From Gracilinema caldarium DSM 7334 (GTDB taxonomy: Bacteria; Spirochaetota; Spirochaetia; Treponematales; Breznakiellaceae): 64,000 nucleotides of DNA. Positions 43,842 to 56,029 of the stretch are shown piece after piece. Position 1 is the first letter of the stretch, and each line of letters begins with the position of its first letter. Both the position numbers and the translations under genes were made by a program. The DNA lies in contig NC_015732.1 of NCBI RefSeq assembly GCF_000219725.1, forward strand, positions 2,796,972 through 2,860,971, given 5' to 3'. The notes under the pieces were generated by a model, which saw only the letters and a list, made by a program, of their open reading frames with translations, had not been told where the DNA came from and did no database searches.

Positions 43842-46118
43842 ATGATTAAAACCACCACCATGCAGATTCGGGGTATGACTTGTACAGCCTGCGCGAGGGC
43901 TTCCGAGCGGGCGGTAAAAAAACTCGCCGGTATTTCGGATGCCAATGTCAACTTTGCCACTGAAAAGCTGACCCTTCAGTTTGATGATACCCAGGTAAGC
44001 CTTGCGGATATAAAGGCTGCAATTAAGAAAGCCGGTTATGAAGCGGTTGAAATAAAAGCCCAGGAAGAAGAACCCACAGTAGAAGTACAGAAACAGCGGC
44101 TTTTCATTCCTATAGCTTTCACCATTCCTATTTTCTATCTTGCCATGGGCATGATGCTCTCCTGGCCTATTCCTTCGTGGCTTGCCCCCATGCAGTATCC
44201 CCTGCGTTTTGCTCTGGTCCAGCTCGTACTGCTCATTCCGGTAGTATTTGCCGGGTTCCGTTTTTACCACGTGGGGTATCCAGCCCTGTTCCGCGGCAGT
44301 CCCAATATGGATTCCCTCATTGCATTGGGAACCACCGCTGCCATCCTCTACAGTCTCTTTTCTCTCTTCCAGATTTTCATGGGAGATCACATGGCGGTTG
44401 AACATCTCTATTTTGAAAGTGCTGCGGTTATCATAACCCTGGTGTTGGTTGGCAAAACCCTGGAAGCCCTTGCCAAGGGAAAAACCTCGGAGGCTATCAA
44501 AAAGCTCATCGGCCTTCAGCCCAAAACCGCCCGGGTCATTCGTGAGGGCGTCGAACAGGAAGTCCCAATCGCAAGCCTCATTCCAGGAGATACCATCCTG
44601 GTACGGCCGGGAGAAAAAATCCCTGTCGATGGCATCATCCTTTCAGGTTCTACTGCGATTGATGAGTCCTTTTTGACCGGTGAAAGTCTTCCTGTGGAAA
44701 AACAGGCCGGGGATGAAGTAACCGGGGCCAGCCTCAATAAAAACGGGGCAATTACCATCCGAGCTACCCGGGTTGGACAGGATACGGTACTGGCTCAGAT
44801 CATCAGATTGATGGAACAGGCCCAGGCGGATAAGGCCCCCATTGCCCGTCTTGCGGACCAGGTCTCAGCCTATTTTGTCCCCATTGTCATCGGGATCGCC
44901 CTCGTTTCGGCCCTCCTCTGGTTTATTGCCGGAGAAGGCCTGGTATTTGCTATGTCGATCCTTATCTCGGTCCTCGTTATTGCCTGTCCCTGTGCGCTGG
45001 GCCTGGCTACACCTACCGCGATTATGGTTGGTACCGGAATGGGAGCCCAGCAGAGCATTCTTATTAAATCAGGGGAAGCCCTGGAGATTGCCCACAAAAT
45101 AGATACGGTGGTCTTTGATAAAACCGGAACCATTACTGAAGGGAAACCACGGCTTACGGATCTGCAGCCTGCACCAGAGAGCAACCTATCCGAAGACGAA
45201 TTGCTAGCCCTGGCAGCAGGGATTGAACAGCTTTCAGAACATCCCCTGGGAGAAGCTATTGTAGCTGCCGCCCGGGAACGGAATCTGGCATTGCCGGAAG
45301 TAACAGAAGTAACAGCGATTCCCGGCCGTGGAATCCGGGGAAATGTGGGCGGCAGCGTGGTCTTGCTGGGGAACCAGGCCTTCATGGAAGAGCATTCCAT
45401 CAATATGGATGAGTTTCTCAGGGGTGAAAAAACCAGAAACAGCCCCATCGAAGCCCTGGCTGCGGAGGGTAAAACCGTCATGTTCCTTGCCCTGAAGGGG
45501 ACCGTGCAGGGACTTTTGGCAGTCGCCGATACACCCAAAGCAGAAAGCCGGACAGCGGTTGCGGCTCTGCACCGGATGGGGCTCAAGGTCATTATGATTA
45601 CCGGGGATCACCGAAAAACCGCAGAAGCTATTGCCCGCCAGACCGGGATTGACCAGGTATTGGCGGAGGTACATCCCCAACATAAGGCCCAGGCGGTTCA
45701 GGAACTGCAAAAGGCAGGGCACCGGCTTGCCATGGTGGGGGATGGCATCAATGATGCACCAGCCCTGGTACAGGCGGATATCGGTATCGCCATGGGGTCT
45801 GGTACGGATGTAGCCATAGAAAGCGCCGATATGGTGCTGATGCGAAGTAATCCCCTGGATGTGGTGACCGCCATAGAGCTATCCCGGAGAACCATTCGAA
45901 CGATTAAACAGAATCTTTTCTGGGCATTCGGATACAATGTGTCAGGGATACCGATCGCGGCGGGACTGCTCCACCTGTTCGGTGGCCCCCTCTTAAATCC
46001 CATGATTGCCGCAGCGGCCATGTCCTTCAGTTCCGTTTCGGTGGTGACCAACGCCCTGCGGCTTAGAACCTTTAAGCCGCCCATCACCACAGGGGCTGAC
46101 AGGGCTTCATATAAATAA
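43842..46118 (+). CDS. copA: Copper-translocating P1B-type ATPase
   Basis: 758 aa. One N-terminal HMA domain ([11 protein letters not shown]), eight membrane helices, the actuator LTGESLP, the CPC ion-site in [12 protein letters not shown], phosphorylation [10 protein letters not shown], the SEHPLGEAI nucleotide-domain motif and [10 protein letters not shown] hinge. It exports Cu+ from the cytoplasm. Only one metal-binding domain, as in many bacterial CopA. A small copper chaperone follows 69 bases downstream, so this is a copper-resistance pair. AGAGG precedes the ATG. Confidence 0.95.
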
Positions 46119-46412: not shown

Positions 46413-46449
46413 AACCGCTCAGCCCTTACAGGGCAAGCGGCTTTTTTTT
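46413..46449 (+). terminator. Terminator after copZ
   Basis: CCGCTCAGCCC pairs with GGGCAAGCGG (one mismatch), then eight T residues ending at the tRNA 3' end. Confidence 0.85.
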
Positions 46450-46522
46450 GATCCATAGACGATTCGAACGTCCGACCTAGCGCTTAGGAGGCGCTCGCTC
46501 TATCCACCTGAGCTAATGGATC
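46449..46522 (-). tRNA. tRNA-Arg (anticodon CCT)
   Basis: On the minus strand the molecule begins GATCCATTAGCTCAGG and ends TTCGAATC...ATGGATC plus discriminator A. The seven-base acceptor stem is perfect, the D-arm has AGCTCAGG, the anticodon loop is CTCCTAA on the stem AGCGC/GCGCT, and the T-loop is TTCGAAT. The anticodon CCT reads AGG codons. CCA is not encoded; an A-run follows. Confidence 0.95.
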
Positions 46523-46553
46523 ATTGGGGAAGCCGTAAGGCTGCCCGATGTAG

Positions 46554-46582: not shown

Positions 46583-46732
46583 TAGCAGGGGTTTAACAAG
46601 GACAATGCTGAAGGTTTTGCTCCTGCAACCTGCAGGGGGAAGCCCTGCTTCCTGAAATAATGCATCCTGCTTGGCACCGGCGGAATAATACAGTAAAGTG
46701 CTGACAAGATTGTACTTAAGGGAATGTTTTTC

Positions 46733-47743
46733 ATGAAAAGAATCTGGCGAACCTTAACAATTTTTCCAGTGCTGCTTTTGCATCTCTTGTGTCCAGCCTT
46801 GGGCACCGCAGAAGAAGCCAGTCTTTATTGGAGTATAGAAAACAGTTTGGGGCTTACCTATGGCCATGCCAGGGAACTGGTCTACCAGGACTCGGGTTTA
46901 CCGGACTTACTGAGCGAACTGGTCTGGCCCCTGGAAGGTCTCCTTTATTATGGGACAAGCCTTACTTTTTCATATGGGAAAAGCCCTATGGCTGGTTTTT
47001 ACAGCAGACTGGACGTCCGGTTCGGCTTTACGATGCAGAGCGGCACCATCACCGACAAGGACTGGCTCGGATACAATACTGCTACCAATTCTTATTTTTT
47101 AACTCATTTCTCCGCCCACGATGCCATCAGCGAACATTCCCAATGGGTCGATGCGACGATAGGGTACGGTTTCATGGTCTCTGACCGTTTTATTATCAGG
47201 ACCGGTCTTACAGCTTCGTTTATGAACCTGCACTGGACCGCCCGGGATGGGTATATTCAGTACGGTTCCAACATCGGACAAAACAACTCAAGTTATGTTC
47301 CATGGTCCAGTTCCTTCCCAAAAGATCCAGTGTATGGTACGGGCATCGCTTACTGGCAGAACTGGGTCTCCATAGCCCCTACCCTTGAGGTGTTATGGCT
47401 GGTAGACAATCGACTCACCCTGACAGCTGCTGCTTCGGTGTATGTGCTGAACAGTTGTAATGATCAAGATGATCATTACCTACGCGAGTTGCCACTTCAA
47501 TTCACCGAACATGTTAATGGTGGCTTTGGAATAGAACCCAAACTTACGGTTAGTTACCGGCTGGTCTCCAACATCTCAGTTGGTATAGAAGGTGCCTGGA
47601 GGTATATCACCAGACTTCGGGGCAACACAAGCATTATGGAAATAGGAAGCGGAACGACCGGCGGTCCTTATACAGACCTGGCCGGTACAGACTATTCGGT
47701 GGGTAGCTGTGCGGTGTTTGTACGGTTTACTCCGCAGCGATAA
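46733..47743 (+). CDS. Omptin-family outer membrane aspartyl protease
   Basis: 336 aa with a signal peptide ending near ALGTAEEA, then alternating beta-strand sequence of a 10-strand barrel. Omptin landmarks align throughout: SLGLTYGHARELVY, TDKDW with Asp108/Asp110 (OmpT Asp83/Asp85), TARDGYI, QDDHY with Asp246/His248 (OmpT Asp210/His212), and EGAWRYITRLRGNTS. All four catalytic residues are kept. Omptins cleave between basic residues at the cell surface and in enterobacteria need LPS; how that applies here is unknown. Start: ATG at 46733, nine bases after AAGGGA. Its 3' end overlaps the convergent GGDEF gene by 17 bases. Confidence 0.85.
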   Translation: MKRIWRTLTIFPVLLLHLLCPALGTAEEASLYWSIENSLGLTYGHARELVYQDSGLPDLLSELVWPLEGLLYYGTSLTFSYGKSPMAGFYSRLDVRFGFTMQSGTITDKDWLGYNTATNSYFLTHFSAHDAISEHSQWVDATIGYGFMVSDRFIIRTGLTASFMNLHWTARDGYIQYGSNIGQNNSSYVPWSSSFPKDPVYGTGIAYWQNWVSIAPTLEVLWLVDNRLTLTAAASVYVLNSCNDQDDHYLRELPLQFTEHVNGGFGIEPKLTVSYRLVSNISVGIEGAWRYITRLRGNTSIMEIGSGTTGGPYTDLAGTDYSVGSCAVFVRFTPQR

Positions 47744-48740
47744 CCCGGTTGCGGCCCTGGTCTTTTGCTTTACGGAGGGCCGCATCGGCGGCGGCAAGAA
47801 GTTCCGGCCCGGTAGTACCGTGCTGAGGTGACACGGCTACCCCAAGACAGGTCTTAATAGAAAGCTCAATTTCTTGTAAACGCCCTTGAGAATCTGTCCA
47901 TGAAAGGGGTATAGGGAGCGCAGAAACCGCAAGTCTCAATCGTTCGCTGATACTCATGGCTTCTTCCAATGATGTATCAGGAAGCACAAAGGCAAATTCA
48001 TCCCCTGCCAGCCGGGCAGCAATGTCCGCATCCCGCAGTACCTGTCGGAAAACACCCGCTACTGCCTTAATCACCTTATCACCAGCAGCTTCACCATAGG
48101 CATTATTAATCTCATGAATCCTGTCCAGATCCATCATCATTACAGAAATATTCCGCTTCACTTTATTGGGGCCTTCGAGCCTGCTGTTCAGGGATTCCTC
48201 GAGAAAACGTCGATTATAAAGGCCTGTTAGGCTGTCTGTAATTGCCCTGAGACGGGCTGTTTCACCCCAACGAAGAAGATCATTCAAGAAGCGAGAAGAT
48301 TCATCAAGCCAGCTGGTCATTACCTGACTGATAGCACCTAACAGCTTAAGGGCAATCATGGGATGTTCAAAAATGAGCCGGTAGAAATCGAGCCCCTGGA
48401 GTACGAAAACATCGGTTTCTTCTGTGGCGGTACAGGTCGCAGACCGGGGGGCATCTTCAATAATTGCCATTTCACCGAAAAAACGGCCTGGTTCAAAATC
48501 ATAGATTTTTCGCTGTTTCCCATTACCCAGATTCACCGTGGCGACCACATGACCGGTCAGAATAATAAACATCTCTTGTCCCGGATCTCCTTCAGAAAAT
48601 ATTATTTCACCCTTATGATAATGATGACGCTCCAAAAAGGCTGTTACCGCATTAAATTCAAGTTCACTCATAGCTGCAAAAAGAGGCGAATTGATTAAGG
48701 CCTCGTTATCAAGTGGAGATTTACTCATCGATTTACTCAT
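47727..48740 (-). CDS. Cyclic nucleotide-binding domain / GGDEF protein (likely active diguanylate cyclase)
   Basis: 337 aa. The cNMP-binding domain (about 10-135) has EIIFSEGDPGQEMFIILTGH, FFGEMAIIEDAPRSATC. The GGDEF domain (about 165-335) starts TDSLTGLYNRRFLEE and has RLAGDEFAFVLP at the active site; AGDEF is a variant seen in active cyclases. It may make cyclic di-GMP in response to a nucleotide or other ligand. The ATG at 48740 overlaps the end of its upstream paralogue by eight bases; a second ATG at 48728 is also possible. No membrane segment. Confidence 0.88.
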   Translation of the reverse strand: MSKSMSKSPLDNEALINSPLFAAMSELEFNAVTAFLERHHYHKGEIIFSEGDPGQEMFIILTGHVVATVNLGNGKQRKIYDFEPGRFFGEMAIIEDAPRSATCTATEETDVFVLQGLDFYRLIFEHPMIALKLLGAISQVMTSWLDESSRFLNDLLRWGETARLRAITDSLTGLYNRRFLEESLNSRLEGPNKVKRNISVMMMDLDRIHEINNAYGEAAGDKVIKAVAGVFRQVLRDADIAARLAGDEFAFVLPDTSLEEAMSISERLRLAVSALPIPLSWTDSQGRLQEIELSIKTCLGVAVSPQHGTTGPELLAAADAALRKAKDQGRNRVIAAE

Positions 48741-49740
48741 TATGCAAAACCTTTGCCGTAAGATGTCCGGGAAATGATATAACTCTGTTTCCTCCAGCCT
48801 GCCATTGTTCAACCATATAGACATATTGCTGTTGCACCAGGGTATCCCAATCCTCGAGCATGTCAGGCCACACCCCAAATACAACCGTGGCTGAGAAGGT
48901 AAAACCGGGAAATTTCTCTGTTGGTGAAATCGGTGTTAAAGCGGTGACAGCTTTATATAGGTTTTGAGCCACAGTTTGAGCAGACTCAAGACTACAACGG
49001 GGCAGGCAGAGTCCTACTTCATTACTTTTAAAACGTAAAGCCCAACCACGTCCAAATTGCCGGACCAGGGACTTTAAAATTCCTGCGATACTCACCATTG
49101 CTTCATCCCCTGCACTATGACCAAGACCATCAACTAAGATTTTAAATCGATCCGGTTTCATGAGAATTAGTGCAGTTGGGGCCTGTAATTCTCGCCGGAT
49201 TTCTTCATCGAGAAAAGCACGATTCCAGAGCCCCGTACCGGGGTCCTCATAGGCCCGACGCCTTAATTCTTGAACCCAAGAAGTGTTTTCTGAAATGAGT
49301 TTTTGGGTAGATCTGAGGCGGCTAGAAATCATAGAAAGAGAACGAAGCAAAATACGGGAAACCGTATCAGGTTTTTCACGCTTAATATCTTCAAAATTAA
49401 GTCCTAAGGCAGGAAAACAAATTAATTCTGTATCTTCCAAGGCGACTGCAACGGCATCATAGATCGTTTGCCGGGCAAAATCGAACTCGCCCAGGAGATC
49501 CTGGCCAGTAAAAATGGCAAGCTCTTCAACTTGTCCATCAGTTTTTATACGAAAAACTCTAATCGATCCAGATACAATATAATAAAAACGATCTGCTGGA
49601 TCACCTATTGTAAAAAGACGAGCTCCCTTTCGCAACTGAAAACGACTTACTCTGGATACTATATAGTCCTCATCATCGGTTAATAATCCTGAGAAAAGTG
49701 ATGATTTTTTTAAAATATCTTGATTATTACAATCACCCAA
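48733..49740 (-). CDS. Cyclic nucleotide-binding domain / degenerate GGDEF protein
   Basis: 335 aa, the tandem paralogue of the next gene. cNMP-binding domain (about 8-130: GARLFTIGDPADRFYYIVSG, LLGEFDFARQTIYDAVAVA) and GGDEF fold (about 170-330: DPGTGLWNRAFLDEE). The active-site motif GGDEF is replaced by KSNEV in RFKSNEVGLCLP, so no cyclase activity is expected; it may bind ligand or form a heterodimer with the downstream protein. The start is TTG at 49740 after a GGGGGAAG ribosome binding site; no ATG fits. Confidence 0.85.
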   Translation of the reverse strand: MGDCNNQDILKKSSLFSGLLTDDEDYIVSRVSRFQLRKGARLFTIGDPADRFYYIVSGSIRVFRIKTDGQVEELAIFTGQDLLGEFDFARQTIYDAVAVALEDTELICFPALGLNFEDIKREKPDTVSRILLRSLSMISSRLRSTQKLISENTSWVQELRRRAYEDPGTGLWNRAFLDEEIRRELQAPTALILMKPDRFKILVDGLGHSAGDEAMVSIAGILKSLVRQFGRGWALRFKSNEVGLCLPRCSLESAQTVAQNLYKAVTALTPISPTEKFPGFTFSATVVFGVWPDMLEDWDTLVQQQYVYMVEQWQAGGNRVISFPGHLTAKVLHNE

Positions 49741-49873: not shown

Positions 49874-50980
49874 ATGAAGGGACACCTTTTTTTTATTATT
49901 TACTTATGTTTCATATGTCTTCCTACATTATCATCACAATCTCATACTAATAAAACCGCAGAAATTATCGATCTTAACCTTTTTCCTGTTTTTATACACA
50001 ACGATTTTAAAAGTGAGTATATAACCATGTATGATTCACCAATAGCTCATGACTGGTTATGTATTTCACCTTCGTTAGATGGCAATCGATCTGTTCGAAT
50101 TATTGATATACCGGAATATAGCAAACATCATTTTTTAAGTATTATTACTCAAAAACCTGAGGAATTTACGTACATTATTCCATTTATCGTATCCAGCAAT
50201 CAATTAGCAGATTTTTCTACATCAATTCCCTCCATGTTAGGACTTCATCTTGCATCCATAGGTGATAACTGGGAGATTTATCTAAATGGAACACTTCTTC
50301 GGCGGGAAATACATTTAGATACATCAGGTTTTATTACAACTCATTGTAACTACCGAGATTTACTGATTTCTTTTCCACCTTCACTATTGAGAACAGGGTC
50401 AAATTATTTGCTGTTTCACATTATTGGCGATCCTGCCAATCCAATGGTTGGCTTAAATTCATCCAGCCCTTATAGGATTGCTAATCTAGACCTCTTAAGA
50501 TTAACAACAAAAACAACCTTTGAAACAACCTTAAGCATTATTTATATCTTCATGGGCTTATATATTTTCTTAATTAATCTTTCTAAAACATTTACTTTTA
50601 TGCGTACCTTTGGACTTTTTTCACTTATTCTGGGTATCTATTTTCTTTGTCGATCATCTATTTTATATCAATGGATTTCAAATTCAGAGTTATTATTTAA
50701 AATTGAAATCAGTAGTTTATTTCTTATCTTGCCTACAACGATATTTTTTCTTTCTGGCTTTCTTCCTCCTGAAAAGGTTCGCCAAAGAATTAACATTGGA
50801 TTATATATCCTCTACGGTTTGTTTACTTTATTAGGACTTATTTTCCCACCAGCCTTTGGACATGATCTCGTAAATTTATGGGGAATAATCAGCATTTTTA
50901 CATCCTTGTATATATTAGGATATATATTGCTCTGGCATTTTTTTATTACCCTTCAAAAAGAACTAAATAGGGCTTCCTGA
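49874..50980 (+). pseudogene. 5' half of a membrane sensor gene split by an insertion sequence
   Basis: 368 aa up to a stop supplied by the insertion sequence; only the last three residues are encoded by the element. Signal peptide, an extracellular beta-domain (about 25-215, with LHLASIGDNWEIYLNGTL), then seven membrane helices like 7TMR-DISM proteins. It aligns along its length with the intact gene at 53.7 kb. Joined to the 3' half it would be a 740-aa sensor. The gene is very AT-rich. The truncated protein lacks every cytoplasmic domain. Confidence 0.88.
50964..50969. repeat. Left target-site duplication (TAAATA)
   Basis: TAAATA directly precedes the left inverted repeat and is repeated exactly at 52619-52624 after the right end. 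Confidence 0.85.
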
Positions 50981-51032
50981 AAAACAAACAACTCTTTACA
51001 AAAGAAGCAAATACAGAGATAATCTCAATAAG

Positions 51033-51076
51033 AAGTGCACGGAAGAAAGGGGTAAGGCCTTAAAAAGCGTGCACTT
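51033..51076 (+). promoter_or_regulatory. Stem-loop upstream of the transposase start
   Basis: AAGTGCACG (51033-51041) pairs perfectly with CGTGCACTT (51068-51076); the loop contains the palindrome TAAGGCCTTA (51053-51062). It ends five bases before the GGGG ribosome binding site, so it could limit transposase translation from read-through transcripts. Confidence 0.5.
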
Positions 51077-51091
51077 TACTATGGGGTAACG

Positions 51092-52555
51092 ATGTATAAG
51101 GAAAAGGAACAGGTACCTGAGTTTGAAGACTTTTATGTACCCTTCGGAGGACATTTACGAGAAGATAATCGATGGGTACGATTAGCCGCAATTATTCCAT
51201 GGGAAGAGATAGAAGCTGAATATAAAAAATGTTTTTCAAAACGAATTGGAAGAACAGCCAAGACCGTACGGCTCGCCTTGGGATCATTATTGATAAAAGA
51301 GAAATTACAATTAACAGATGAAGAAACGGTAGAAACAATACGAGAGAACCATTACCTGCAATATTTTTTAGGATATGAATCTTACAAAGATGAAAAACCC
51401 TTTGATCCAAGCATGATGGTTCATTTTCGAAAACGGCTTGGACCTGATGCAATAGCACAGATAAATGAGTTGATAGCGAAACGGTATCAAGAACAGGTAG
51501 AAGCAGAATCTGAAAAAAAACAGAACAAAGAAAACCAAAAGGATGACCATGATCATGGAAATCGAGGGCAACTCATTATAGATGCCACGTGCGTCCCCCA
51601 GGATATCCGGCATCCCCATGATGTCACTTTATTGGATGAAGCGCGAAGGAAAACAGAAAAGATAATTGATACGTTATATGAAGCGAGTGAGCTCACCATA
51701 AAACCACGAACCTATAGAAAACAGGCCCGTATCAAATATCTCAATTTTATACGAGGGCGACGAAGAACAAAAAAAGAAATACGCAGAGCGATTCGGACCC
51801 AACTCCAATACATACGACGTAATTTACGGACTATCAATGAATTACAAAACAAGGTTCCCAGTACAACGTTGAGTGCAAAACAGCGACGTGATCTTATCGT
51901 GATACATGAGGTTTACCGGCAACAGGTACAGATGTATAAGGGAAAGACCCATTCGATATCGGGAAAAATCGTCAGTATCAGTCAACCCCATGTACGACCA
52001 ATAGCCCGAGGTAAAGCAAAAGCGGCCTTTGAATTCGGAGCAAAACTATCAGCATCGATGACCGAACACGGGATGATTTTTATAGATCGATTACAATGGG
52101 AACCCTATAACGAACAAGAAGATTTGCCAACACAAATAGAAAAATATAAGAGGCGATGTGGTCGATATCCGGAATCGGTGCATGCCGATAAAATATATCG
52201 GACACGAGCAAACCGAGCCTATTGTGAAGCTCGAGGAATACGATTGTCTGGACCACCCTTAGGCAGACCGATTAAAGAAACATTAGAGAATAAAAAGATA
52301 GTACGACAGCTACGAAAGATTCAAAGACTTGACGAAGCCATTCGACAAGCGATTGAAGGTGGCTTTGGATATATGAAACGAAAGTTTGGTCTTGGTACAA
52401 TCTATGAAAAATTACGCGAAACTAGTGAAACAGCAATCATGGTATGTGTATTGCTGACCAACTGTGAAAAGATCCTGAGGGATCTTTTTATGCGCTTTTT
52501 ATTTTTACTTGGTTTTAAACCTCATAAATCATATTTGAAAGTTTTAGTATACTAA
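51092..52555 (+). CDS. DDE transposase of the insertion sequence
   Basis: 487 aa, full length. N-terminal DUF772-like helical domain (YFLGYESYKDEKPFDPSMMV). The catalytic acids are read as Asp in LIIDATCVPQDIR, Asp in SVHADKIYRTRANRAY, and Glu in EGGFGYMKRKFGL. A highly basic insert lies between the first two. It is uninterrupted, so the element may still be mobile. TGGGG precedes the ATG by five bases. Confidence 0.9.
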   Translation: MYKEKEQVPEFEDFYVPFGGHLREDNRWVRLAAIIPWEEIEAEYKKCFSKRIGRTAKTVRLALGSLLIKEKLQLTDEETVETIRENHYLQYFLGYESYKDEKPFDPSMMVHFRKRLGPDAIAQINELIAKRYQEQVEAESEKKQNKENQKDDHDHGNRGQLIIDATCVPQDIRHPHDVTLLDEARRKTEKIIDTLYEASELTIKPRTYRKQARIKYLNFIRGRRRTKKEIRRAIRTQLQYIRRNLRTINELQNKVPSTTLSAKQRRDLIVIHEVYRQQVQMYKGKTHSISGKIVSISQPHVRPIARGKAKAAFEFGAKLSASMTEHGMIFIDRLQWEPYNEQEDLPTQIEKYKRRCGRYPESVHADKIYRTRANRAYCEARGIRLSGPPLGRPIKETLENKKIVRQLRKIQRLDEAIRQAIEGGFGYMKRKFGLGTIYEKLRETSETAIMVCVLLTNCEKILRDLFMRFLFLLGFKPHKSYLKVLVY

Positions 52556-52618
52556 ATTAAACCCATTTTAACGTAAAAAAGTTTTGAAATATCATTTTTA
52601 GACATTTTCAGTAGGCCC

Positions 52619-52624
52619 TAAATA
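52619..52624. repeat. Right target-site duplication (TAAATA)
   Basis: Exact copy of 50964-50969 next to the right inverted repeat. Confidence 0.85.
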
Positions 52625-53751
52625 CAAAAAAAGATAAAATAGATACTCGTACAATTATTAAAAAAGTTAAAAATGTTCTTTTATTAACACCTATTGGCAA
52701 TATTCTCATTGGGTTTAGTTTTCTCGCATGCACTGCTATGTTTGATGCTTTTGAAACGATTATTACCCATAAGAATCATGTACTTAGTCGTTATTCTTTT
52801 TTAATTTTTATTTTTGGAAGTATCATTGCTATTGCTCATCATTATCGAAATCTCTTAACCCGTTTACAAACTACTAATCATCTTCTCGAAACACAAATTA
52901 GCCTCATTAATCATAGTAAGTTAATGGCAGAACGTAATGAACAGGTTTTTTACAATATATTTTATAGTAGTATCGATCCCATTTTTATCACTGACGACCA
53001 GCTACATATCATAGATTACAATCTTGGTACAGCCTATTATTTTACTTTTAATAGTAAACAGCTAAGTGATAAAAACACCCTCTTTGATATTTTACCTATG
53101 GATAATGATTCCAAGTTAAAACTAAAAACCACCATAGCAATATATAAACACCATGTATCATGCAGTTTTAAACAAACAGTTCGTATCATAGCACCATATA
53201 ATGCTTCAAAACACTTACTACAATCATACACATTACATGTAGACAAACTCAACTACAACGAATCACCGCTTTTTTCAATTAGAGTAGTACCAATAAAGAC
53301 AAAATTGGACTTTATGAGTTTAAAATGGAGCCGCGGAAGTTATACTATAGATAGTTCACCAGAACAAGCGGATTTACTTAGCCAACGATTAACAGCGGCC
53401 CTTTACTACTTTATAACAGAACAGGGTTCAGAGCTTATTCGAACAGGTATCCATGAAATGTTGCTTAATGCAATAGTACATGGAAATAAAAATGATCCAC
53501 AAAAGAAGGTTTTTGTTAAATATATATTCACTCCTCGCAAGGTACTTATTCGAATAACCGATCAGGGGAATGGCTTTGATCACATCAGTATTTTAAAAAA
53601 GGTCCAACTGCACGATAATATATATTTAAAAAACCACCAGGGAATATTTATTACACTTGGAGCCTTTGATTATGTGACTTATAATGAAATAGGAAACCAG
53701 GTAACCCTGGGTAAAAATGTATATAACAAGGAAGCAGAACATGAAACTTAA
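52625..53751 (+). pseudogene. 3' half of the split membrane sensor gene
   Basis: The frame is open from inside the right end of the element; the first ATG is at 52738 (337 aa from there). It encodes the last membrane helices (TPIGNILIGFSFLACTAMF), a PAS-like region, and a C-terminal RsbW-type ATPase with N-box EMLLNAIVHGN and DQGNGFDH. The glycine lid is weak (NHQGIFIT) compared with the intact paralogue. It may be transcribed from the element, but it has lost the sensor half. Ends 11 bases past the next gene's ATG. Confidence 0.85.
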
Positions 53752-56029
53752 ATTAGTACCCAGAATTTTTCTTTTCCAAGCACTTTTATTCTCTTCAATT
53801 TATTTATACGCATTGCCAAGTATCCCTAATACATCAGCTTTTTTTATTGATTTAAACACCCTTCCAATATATGTACATTTAGGTTTTAATCAACGGCTTA
53901 TTTCATCAGTTCCGGATACCAACGATACTGCCTGGCAGGTTTTTCCGCCTACACCAGAGGGACCTCGAATTGTTCGTTATCTGGAAATTGATGGAATACC
54001 GAAAAAAAAATTCTTGAGTATTACAACCTATAAACCTATTGAAACAACCTTTGTTATTCCTTTTATGGTCAATACAAAAACACTTACCGGGATAGTCCCT
54101 GGGTTACATCTTGCTTCCATTGGTGATAATTGGGAAATTTACCTGAATGGCACCCTTATTAAATCTGAGCTGCACTTGAATTCTACCGGCTCTATAACAT
54201 CCCATAGAAGTTATCGTGATGTATACCTACCCATCAATCCTGATCTCTTTGTAGATGGGCAAAACATTATAGCCTTCAGAATTATTGGAGAGCCCACTAA
54301 TACACCGGTTGGCTTTTTCTTTTCTCAACCCTATGTCATTACCGACTACACATCAATTGAGGCATCTAACAACGATGTCTGGAAATTTGCCCTTTGTGCA
54401 ATCTATATATTTATTGGTCTTTACCATATAGTTCTCTATTTATTCAGACTACAGGATCGATATAACCTATTTTATGGGTTCTTCTCTATAGATCTAGGAC
54501 TCTATTTCTTTGCAAGAATTCATACGGTTTATCAGTTTATCCCTGATTCAGTATTATTAATGAAACTTGAGTTCATTACACTCTACATGGTCATGCCATC
54601 GGTCAGTGCATTCATTGAAACCTTGAGTATCAATAAGACTCGATGGGGAACCAGAATAATGGCAATGTATTGCGGGATATTATCTTTGGGAACTATTTTT
54701 TCATCCCTTGCGTTTGCCCACGATCTTTTAAAAATTTGGCAATACAGTGCCCTCTTTATAGTGTTCTATATTTTTGGATACGCAGTTTTGTGGGACTTCT
54801 TCTCCACCGCCTTTCGACGATGGAAACGAACCGCTCAGGTCAACAATCATTCAGGTTTTGGAGGTCAAATATGGCATGATCTCATTAAAACGCCCCTTGG
54901 AAATGTGGCTATTGGAGCTTCCATTCTGTTTGCAACTGCACTCTTTGATATTTTAGATTCCATCTTTTTCCTTACCGATGCGGTGCTTTCCCGCTATGGA
55001 CTATTCATCTTTACCATCGGCAGTGCGTTAATTCTGGCCAATCGATATGGGTTCTTATTTAAACAGCTTAATTATGCCAATGTAAATTTGGAAGAACGTA
55101 TCAATGATCTCAGTGTAGCAAAAGCTACTGCCGAACGAAATGAACGAAAATATCGTAGCCTTTTTAATGGAACAAAAGATCCTATTGCATTGTTGGATAA
55201 GGATTTCCGATTTAAGGAATGCAATGGAGCGGGTATTGATTATTTCAATCTTGAAGGAGTAGATCTTTCCTATACCAGCGAGAAAACCCCCAAACTTACA
55301 GACCTGCTTTATGAAGATCAGCGGGAACATATTTCTTTAGCAGAACGGTTTGAAAGTATTCGTGAACGACTGCTTACTTCAAAACAGATTGTTGAAGTTC
55401 AAGCACAGATGCGTTCTCCCCTCGGAGAATTTAAATCCTGTTCACTGCGCATGGAAAGCATAAAAACTTCTGATGAACTTGAAATATTAGTTCGAGTGAT
55501 ACCAGATATTCAGAATGAATTAGTACATGCTTTTATTGAAGGGCGGGAACGTTTTGAAATAGAAAACACCCTCACCGCAGCAGATGAAATTAGCCGCCAT
55601 ATCTGTATCAATCTCGGGAAATACATGCCCCAGGAAGATGCTAATTTTGCAATGGTATGTGTTCGAGAAATCATTATTAATGCTATTGAACACGGAAATC
55701 TTGAAATTACTTTTGATGAAAAGTCAAAGGCACAACGAGAGCGAAGGTATTTTGAGTTTTTACAAGAACGGAAAGACGTTCCTCAATACAAAGACCGGCG
55801 GGTCCAAGTAGAATATTCTATAACACCGCAGAGGGCTCTCTTTAGGGTAACAGATGAAGGCAAAGGGTTTGATCATCGTACCTTTTTAAAAAGAGTAGCT
55901 AATCCCAGTCCAGAAATTTTGGAACATGGCCGGGGCCTCTTTATGACCCTGGCGGCTTTTGATAGGGTAGTCTATAACGATAAGGGTAATCAGGTAACTC
56001 TGGAAAAACGCTTTACAGTCAAGACGTAA
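53741..56029 (+). CDS. 7TMR-DISM-type membrane sensor with PAS-like and RsbW-type ATPase domains
   Basis: 762 aa. Signal peptide (1-20), an extracellular beta-domain (about 25-205) with LHLASIGDNWEIYLNGTL, about seven membrane helices (about 215-440), a short coiled coil, a PAS-like domain (about 470-570: LFNGTKDPIALLDKDFRF) and a C-terminal HATPase (about 610-762) with N-box REIIINAIEHGN, G1 DEGKGFDH and G2 HGRGLFMT. No His-containing dimerisation helix is present, so it resembles partner-switching serine kinases (RsbW-like), not a classical histidine kinase. ATG at 53741 after AAGGAAG; the upstream in-frame ATG at 53717 is less likely. Intact paralogue of the split gene before it. Confidence 0.85.
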   Translation: MKLKLVPRIFLFQALLFSSIYLYALPSIPNTSAFFIDLNTLPIYVHLGFNQRLISSVPDTNDTAWQVFPPTPEGPRIVRYLEIDGIPKKKFLSITTYKPIETTFVIPFMVNTKTLTGIVPGLHLASIGDNWEIYLNGTLIKSELHLNSTGSITSHRSYRDVYLPINPDLFVDGQNIIAFRIIGEPTNTPVGFFFSQPYVITDYTSIEASNNDVWKFALCAIYIFIGLYHIVLYLFRLQDRYNLFYGFFSIDLGLYFFARIHTVYQFIPDSVLLMKLEFITLYMVMPSVSAFIETLSINKTRWGTRIMAMYCGILSLGTIFSSLAFAHDLLKIWQYSALFIVFYIFGYAVLWDFFSTAFRRWKRTAQVNNHSGFGGQIWHDLIKTPLGNVAIGASILFATALFDILDSIFFLTDAVLSRYGLFIFTIGSALILANRYGFLFKQLNYANVNLEERINDLSVAKATAERNERKYRSLFNGTKDPIALLDKDFRFKECNGAGIDYFNLEGVDLSYTSEKTPKLTDLLYEDQREHISLAERFESIRERLLTSKQIVEVQAQMRSPLGEFKSCSLRMESIKTSDELEILVRVIPDIQNELVHAFIEGRERFEIENTLTAADEISRHICINLGKYMPQEDANFAMVCVREIIINAIEHGNLEITFDEKSKAQRERRYFEFLQERKDVPQYKDRRVQVEYSITPQRALFRVTDEGKGFDHRTFLKRVANPSPEILEHGRGLFMTLAAFDRVVYNDKGNQVTLEKRFTVKT

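Follow-up and report, generated by a model that had tools for sequence, protein, structure and literature searches.

Can an omptin protease work in an outer membrane that lacks lipid A? Characterised omptins are held to need rough lipopolysaccharide (LPS) (PMC3724046, excerpt), so that such a protein might be inactive where the membrane has no lipid A. The question is raised by a gene of the spirochaete Gracilinema caldarium DSM 7334, whose genome is one contig of 3,239,340 bases; by the window we mean the whole 64,000-nucleotide stretch of that genome that we analysed. A first-pass annotation, made by a model from the letters alone, had read the gene as a complete omptin-type surface protease in a spirochaete-like genome, and both parts of that reading held.

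Positions 46733–47743 of the plus strand form a complete open reading frame (ORF) of 336 residues with zero internal stops. The start codon is ATG 46733, preceded nine bases away by AGGGA, and an in-frame ATG at 46724 is another possible start. The sole Pfam family in the product is Omptin (PF01278; 96.7 bits where 22.6 is the cut-off, E 1.7e-27), which spans residues 34–330 and positions 6–279 of the 283 in the profile. NCBIfam omptin subfamily models give 19.1 and 16 bits where their cut-offs are 537 and 415, the kind of weak match that a distant member should show; identity to OmpT is 18%, and a phmmer search of PDB sequences found only OmpT (1i78, E 0.006) and pOmpT (7xw0, E 0.022) as solved relatives. 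Residues 1–26 (46733–46810, plus strand) are predicted from the sequence to form a Sec signal peptide, with a low-confidence helix at 2–19 in the structural model; our guess is that cleavage follows ALGTA. The gene has a GC content of 0.492 against 0.466 for the window, and a scan for promoters and terminators gave no more sites than shuffled sequences. Comparison with three close relatives yielded dN/dS values of 0.12–0.17, at a dS of about 2 where synonymous sites are near saturation, which we take as signs of purifying selection.

The predicted fold matches this family assignment. An AlphaFold2 model built on a 66-row alignment has ten barrel strands, a mean pLDDT of 93.7 and a pTM of 0.87. 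Foldseek, which the first-pass annotation had proposed running against OmpT and Pla, returned OmpT, Pla and pOmpT entries as its ten best matches (E 1e-19 to 5e-12). VIA-align placed the model on OmpT/Pla-type barrels with Z scores of 27.9–32.4, and on OmpT and Pla at Z 30–32 with rmsd of 1.7–2.1 Å. The list is led by an OmpT model (32.4), Pla 2x4m_B (31.8) and OmpT 1i78_B (31.4), with rmsd of 1.7–2.0 Å over 280–285 aligned residues. From this superposition and the sequence alignments, the four catalytic residues would lie close together in the barrel. Two outcomes that the annotation had named as counting against it, a barrel holding those residues apart and a protein unrelated to peptidase family A26, did not occur.

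The numbering of the proposed catalytic set, Asp108, Asp110, Asp246 and His248, also proved correct: phmmer, MAFFT and hmmalign agree in placing these residues on OmpT D83, D85, D210 and H212. Both phmmer alignments (1i78 and 7xw0) put D246-x-H248 (47468–47476; all codons given here and below are on the plus strand) on D210-x-H212, and the longer one (1i78) also puts D108-x-D110-W (47054–47062) on D83-x-D85-W. Residues that support the active site are kept as well, with Ser127 and His129 (47111–47119) aligning to OmpT S99 and H101. In a 15-row alignment that includes OmpT, D108, D110, S127, D246, H248 and E48 are invariant.

Residues that shape specificity give a more divided picture. Using the OmpT numbering and the S1 and S1' roles of E27, D208 and D97 given in PMC11410778 (excerpt), we found the S1 pair retained as Glu48 (46874–46876) and Asp244 (47462–47464), but His125 (47105–47107) stands at the S1' residue D97. 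P1' specificity may thus differ from that of OmpT. Cleavage at dibasic sites, as first predicted, is therefore only half supported, by the S1 side.

We surveyed the same positions across the phylum. A profile built during the analysis gave 143 hits among ORFs collected from the best match of all 119 omptin-bearing genomes and from many second matches; 139 ORFs were left after removal of the one from E. coli, which came back as the OmpT reference, of two duplicates at one locus (L133) and of one 21-bit fragment. The D-D-D-H tetrad is intact in 127 of these, a count that hmmalign reproduced as a second alignment, while the other 12 comprise three N-D-D-H, seven gapped fragments, one A-A-D-H and one E-G-D-Y. 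The column of S99 holds Ser in 124 ORFs and that of H101 holds His in 84; the window omptin keeps both. Ranked by identity to OmpT, the four catalytic positions fall in the 98th–99th percentile of all positions.

These counts bear on whether the protein might be a barrel without proteolysis, now serving as an adhesin or pore. Relatives without the tetrad do exist: at least one intact set occurs in 114 of the 119 genomes, and the other five (G032, G150, G177, G252 and G305) have none in the ORFs read. The adhesin OpcA, moreover, is the first non-omptin fold in the VIA-align list, at Z 18.6. The window copy, however, retains all four catalytic residues together with the equivalents of S99, H101, E27 and D208, and few columns of the family alignment are better conserved than the four catalytic ones; we regard a switch to adhesin or pore as improbable.

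Several side observations emerged from the survey. Tandem omptins occur as three copies in G107 (L082; one of them E-G-D-Y), two in G170 (L127) and two in G310 (L043), and an omptin with an intact tetrad lies at G165:C1:2059279-2060178 (L081). A branch of 16 rows outside the class (SH-aLRT 99; L103, L107, L108, L127, L082, L097 and others) often has Ile in the D97 column and, depending on the alignment, Tyr or Gly in that of E27. From its residues, this branch is possibly a different specificity group.

If the active site is intact, what of its expected activator? The first-pass annotation had suggested that the host may lack classical LPS, and this was borne out insofar as no lipid A pathway is recognisable. 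Family searches for LpxC, LpxB, LpxK and WaaA, the four families that made up the set, found no match in the complete genome, with a positive E. coli control in each search; Omp85/BamA is present. A published survey of genomes agrees with this pattern, reporting no Kdo2-lipid A enzymes in T. denticola, T. pallidum and Borrelia (PMC3087551, excerpt). Across the phylum, LpxC occurs in 110 of 392 genomes, but the class of G. caldarium has 97 omptin-bearing genomes and LpxC is absent from every one of them. Tabulated over the 392, both genes occur in 7 genomes, omptin only in 112, LpxC only in 103 and neither in 170 (Fisher p 4e-12); the LpxC genomes listed all fall outside this class, so the negative association, though genuine as a tally, is confounded and carries no causal conclusion.

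The putative lipid A contacts of OmpT, numbered as in PMC7356225 (excerpt), are likewise missing. At Y134, E136, R138, R175 and K226 the window omptin has, in two alignments, Ala161, Phe163 and Asn165 (47213–47227), Asn210 (47360–47362) and Asn262 (47516–47518), so that none of the five is conserved. Identity to OmpT at these positions sits at percentiles 57, 0, 67, 29 and 69 of all positions. None of the 139 spirochaete-phylum omptins has E136, and the five-residue motif is mostly missing among them.

An obvious account, that the motif was lost because LPS was lost, is unsupported by these data. E136 is missing in all nine omptin ORFs from the seven phylum genomes that bear both omptin and LpxC (R138 is present in three of the nine), and not one of the 12 non-enteric proteobacterial omptins sampled has either E136 or R138. 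Among the rows examined, E136 is carried only by OmpT and OmpP of E. coli K-12, and OmpP is without R175 and K226. Since the motif is mostly missing in spirochaete and the sampled non-enteric proteobacterial omptins alike, it looks enterobacterial rather than lost for want of LPS. Its weight in the enzymes themselves is contested, as OmpT with all five contacts mutated was active in vitro when LPS was added (PMC7356225, excerpt), and changes at R138 reduced the activity of Pla (PMC3724046, excerpt). The motif is best read, from alignments, as an enterobacterial feature of disputed importance.

The annotation had gone on to state that activation of the spirochaete enzyme must differ. That is plausible, but the missing contacts do not compel it: E136 and R138 are equally absent from the omptins of rhizobia, which make LPS, and the mutated OmpT still works with LPS. 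A narrower form of the idea is that the omptin still needs an anionic amphiphile, with a spirochaetal glycolipid or phospholipid replacing lipid A as activator. LPS activation is described for the omptins that have been studied (PMC3724046, excerpt), and the response of the five-residue mutant to LPS (PMC7356225, excerpt) suggests that contact between lipid and barrel may be non-specific. The phylum's omptins also share a feature that could face lipid, in that 117 of the 135 with a residue at OmpT position 136 have Tyr, Phe or Trp there, although this preference may be plain barrel-girdle chemistry. We hold this variant, which is a branch of our main reading, to be a real but somewhat doubtful possibility.

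The first-pass annotation had also implied that an omptin is out of place in a spirochaete. On the contrary, the family is common there: of 392 phylum genomes searched with PF01278, 119 match, as do 13 of the 16 from the same family, and the window protein used as a query finds relatives in 75 of 98 genomes of its family, including 4 of 4 of its genus. Its closest rows are Gracilinema and Treponema MAGs at 58–66% identity, among them a MAG itself named Gracilinema caldarium (58–62%), and outside the genus the family relatives listed are at most 43% identical. A scan of genome contigs found only three relatives, all Gracilinema or Treponema MAGs. Plasmid records contained zero at E 1e-5, and phage records gave one weak match (E 4e-4).

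Could the gene nonetheless be a recent arrival from an enterobacterium? Omptins are best known from that group, and their genes have been suggested to move between lineages (PMC3724046, excerpt). A rapid maximum-likelihood analysis of 95 full-length rows from the spirochaete phylum and proteobacteria (same-order rows thinned to 26) gave an unrooted tree with weak support at many deep forks and with some long branches. The window omptin and its three MAG relatives form a clade of four (SH-aLRT 100), inside a group of 17 (94) that holds 12 of the 14 rows of its own family. All 14 proteobacterial rows are set apart by a single branch (98), and their nearest neighbours are three spirochaete rows from the class of G. 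caldarium (96). With only 18% identity to OmpT, this tree placement, synteny kept with relatives and a wide distribution in the family, we rejected a recent enterobacterial origin, which appears extremely improbable. The lateral transfer that the annotation had raised, with a phylogeny as its check, thus found no support, as the proteobacterial rows make a separate branch and the gene occupies a conserved chromosomal place.

That place is shared on both sides of the gene with two relatives (L134 and L135). Window and relatives alike show the order class I lysyl-tRNA synthetase, copper-type ATPase, tRNA-Arg(CCT), omptin and two opposite-strand cNMP-GGDEF genes; the stretch from a third relative (L136) begins inside the omptin and has the downstream half. 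The copper-type P-type ATPase (43842–46118, plus strand; assigned by Pfam) has counterparts of 86% identity in L134 and 82% in L135, and the tRNA (46448–46523, minus strand) is the same gene in the same place in both. Downstream and convergent, two overlapping tandem genes with cNMP-binding and GGDEF domains by Pfam (47727–49740, minus strand) are 75–86% identical in L134–L136. The omptin gene stands alone, so this context gives no hint of a substrate. Farther along the window, 49874–53751 has low GC (34–36%) and carries a DDE transposase, a 7TM signalling gene and a HATPase gene; in L134–L136 the place after the GGDEF pair is taken by a gene related to window 53705–56026 at 35% identity.

Elsewhere in the genome lie two further omptin sequences, a second full copy at C1:1003587-1004243 (54.6 bits) and a broken remnant (C1:997578-997805, L003; L133:4483-4740) that scores 19.5 bits and contains one TGA. 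The remnant, about 6 kb from the second full copy, runs out into unrelated sequence, and a gene with IS91-type transposase domains (L133:7890-9128) lies between the two.

Together, the fold, the intact tetrad, the signs of purifying selection, the presence of BamA and the unmatched lipid A genes argue for a working omptin. We consider it quite probable, from sequence and model, that this is a surface protease with a housekeeping job in an outer membrane without lipid A, and activity without lipid A is likely. The Sec pathway would export the protein and BamA would insert its barrel in the outer membrane, with the active-site groove facing the cell surface. There, the Asp108/Asp110 and Asp246/His248 pairs would activate water and cut the peptide bond after a basic residue, which would be preferred at P1. 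Without lipid A, either the bare barrel would be active or another membrane lipid would replace LPS.

The lifestyle of the host narrows the choice of substrate. The organism, under the name Spirochaeta caldaria H1, is described as a strictly anaerobic freshwater hot-spring thermophile with an optimum of 48–52 °C, obtained from a cyanobacterial mat and degrading cellulose better in co-culture (PMC3739177, excerpt). This is a free-living spirochaete, not a parasite, which makes the cleavage of host proteins suggested at first doubtful. Protection from cationic peptides, or upkeep of the cell surface, is a likelier role in a hot-spring anaerobe than the breakdown of host proteins. The most likely job would be destroying cationic antimicrobial peptides or neighbours' bacteriocins and trimming surface proteins, perhaps with some feeding on peptides.

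Taken alone, the window protein is unremarkable: it belongs to a known protease family and is well conserved within its own lineage; the interest lies in the wider pattern, in which intact omptins are common in spirochaetes without a recognisable lipid A pathway. Our literature search, judged by titles, abstract openings and excerpts, found no paper on spirochaetal omptins, the nearest being a leptospiral protein modelled as Pla-like (PMC5406399, excerpt). Omptins are described as requiring LPS for reasons that are unsettled, and natural homologues with an intact active site and no lipid A genes allow a direct test. We lean slightly towards the view that omptin proteolysis is not intrinsically lipid A-dependent, that activation by LPS is an enterobacterial add-on and that a large spirochaete radiation works without it or with another lipid. 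The spirochaete homologues also broaden a family mostly seen as an enterobacterial virulence trait, being a common and probably housekeeping tool in their own phylum.

Set beside known systems, the window omptin shares with OmpT of Escherichia coli (PF01278, MEROPS A26) the ten-stranded barrel, the D83/D85/D210/H212 set and the equivalents of S99, H101, E27 and D208; it differs in its low identity, in the change of D97 to His, in its lack of lipid A contacts and in a host where no lipid A genes were found. Pla of Yersinia pestis has the same fold (Z 31.8, rmsd 1.7 Å over 280 residues), but serves a mammalian pathogen as a virulence protease activated by LPS (PMC3724046, excerpt), whereas the present protein belongs to a free-living anaerobe. 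Omptins of other treponemes and spirochaetes are of the same PF01278 family and, among the family relatives listed, reach no more than 43% identity outside the genus. The plasmid-borne omptins of Mesorhizobium, Rhizobium, Sinorhizobium, Shinella, Pararhizobium and Roseateles resemble the window omptin in their intact catalytic set and in the absence of E136 and R138 (12 of 12 sampled), yet occupy a separate, supported branch of the tree and serve hosts that make LPS.
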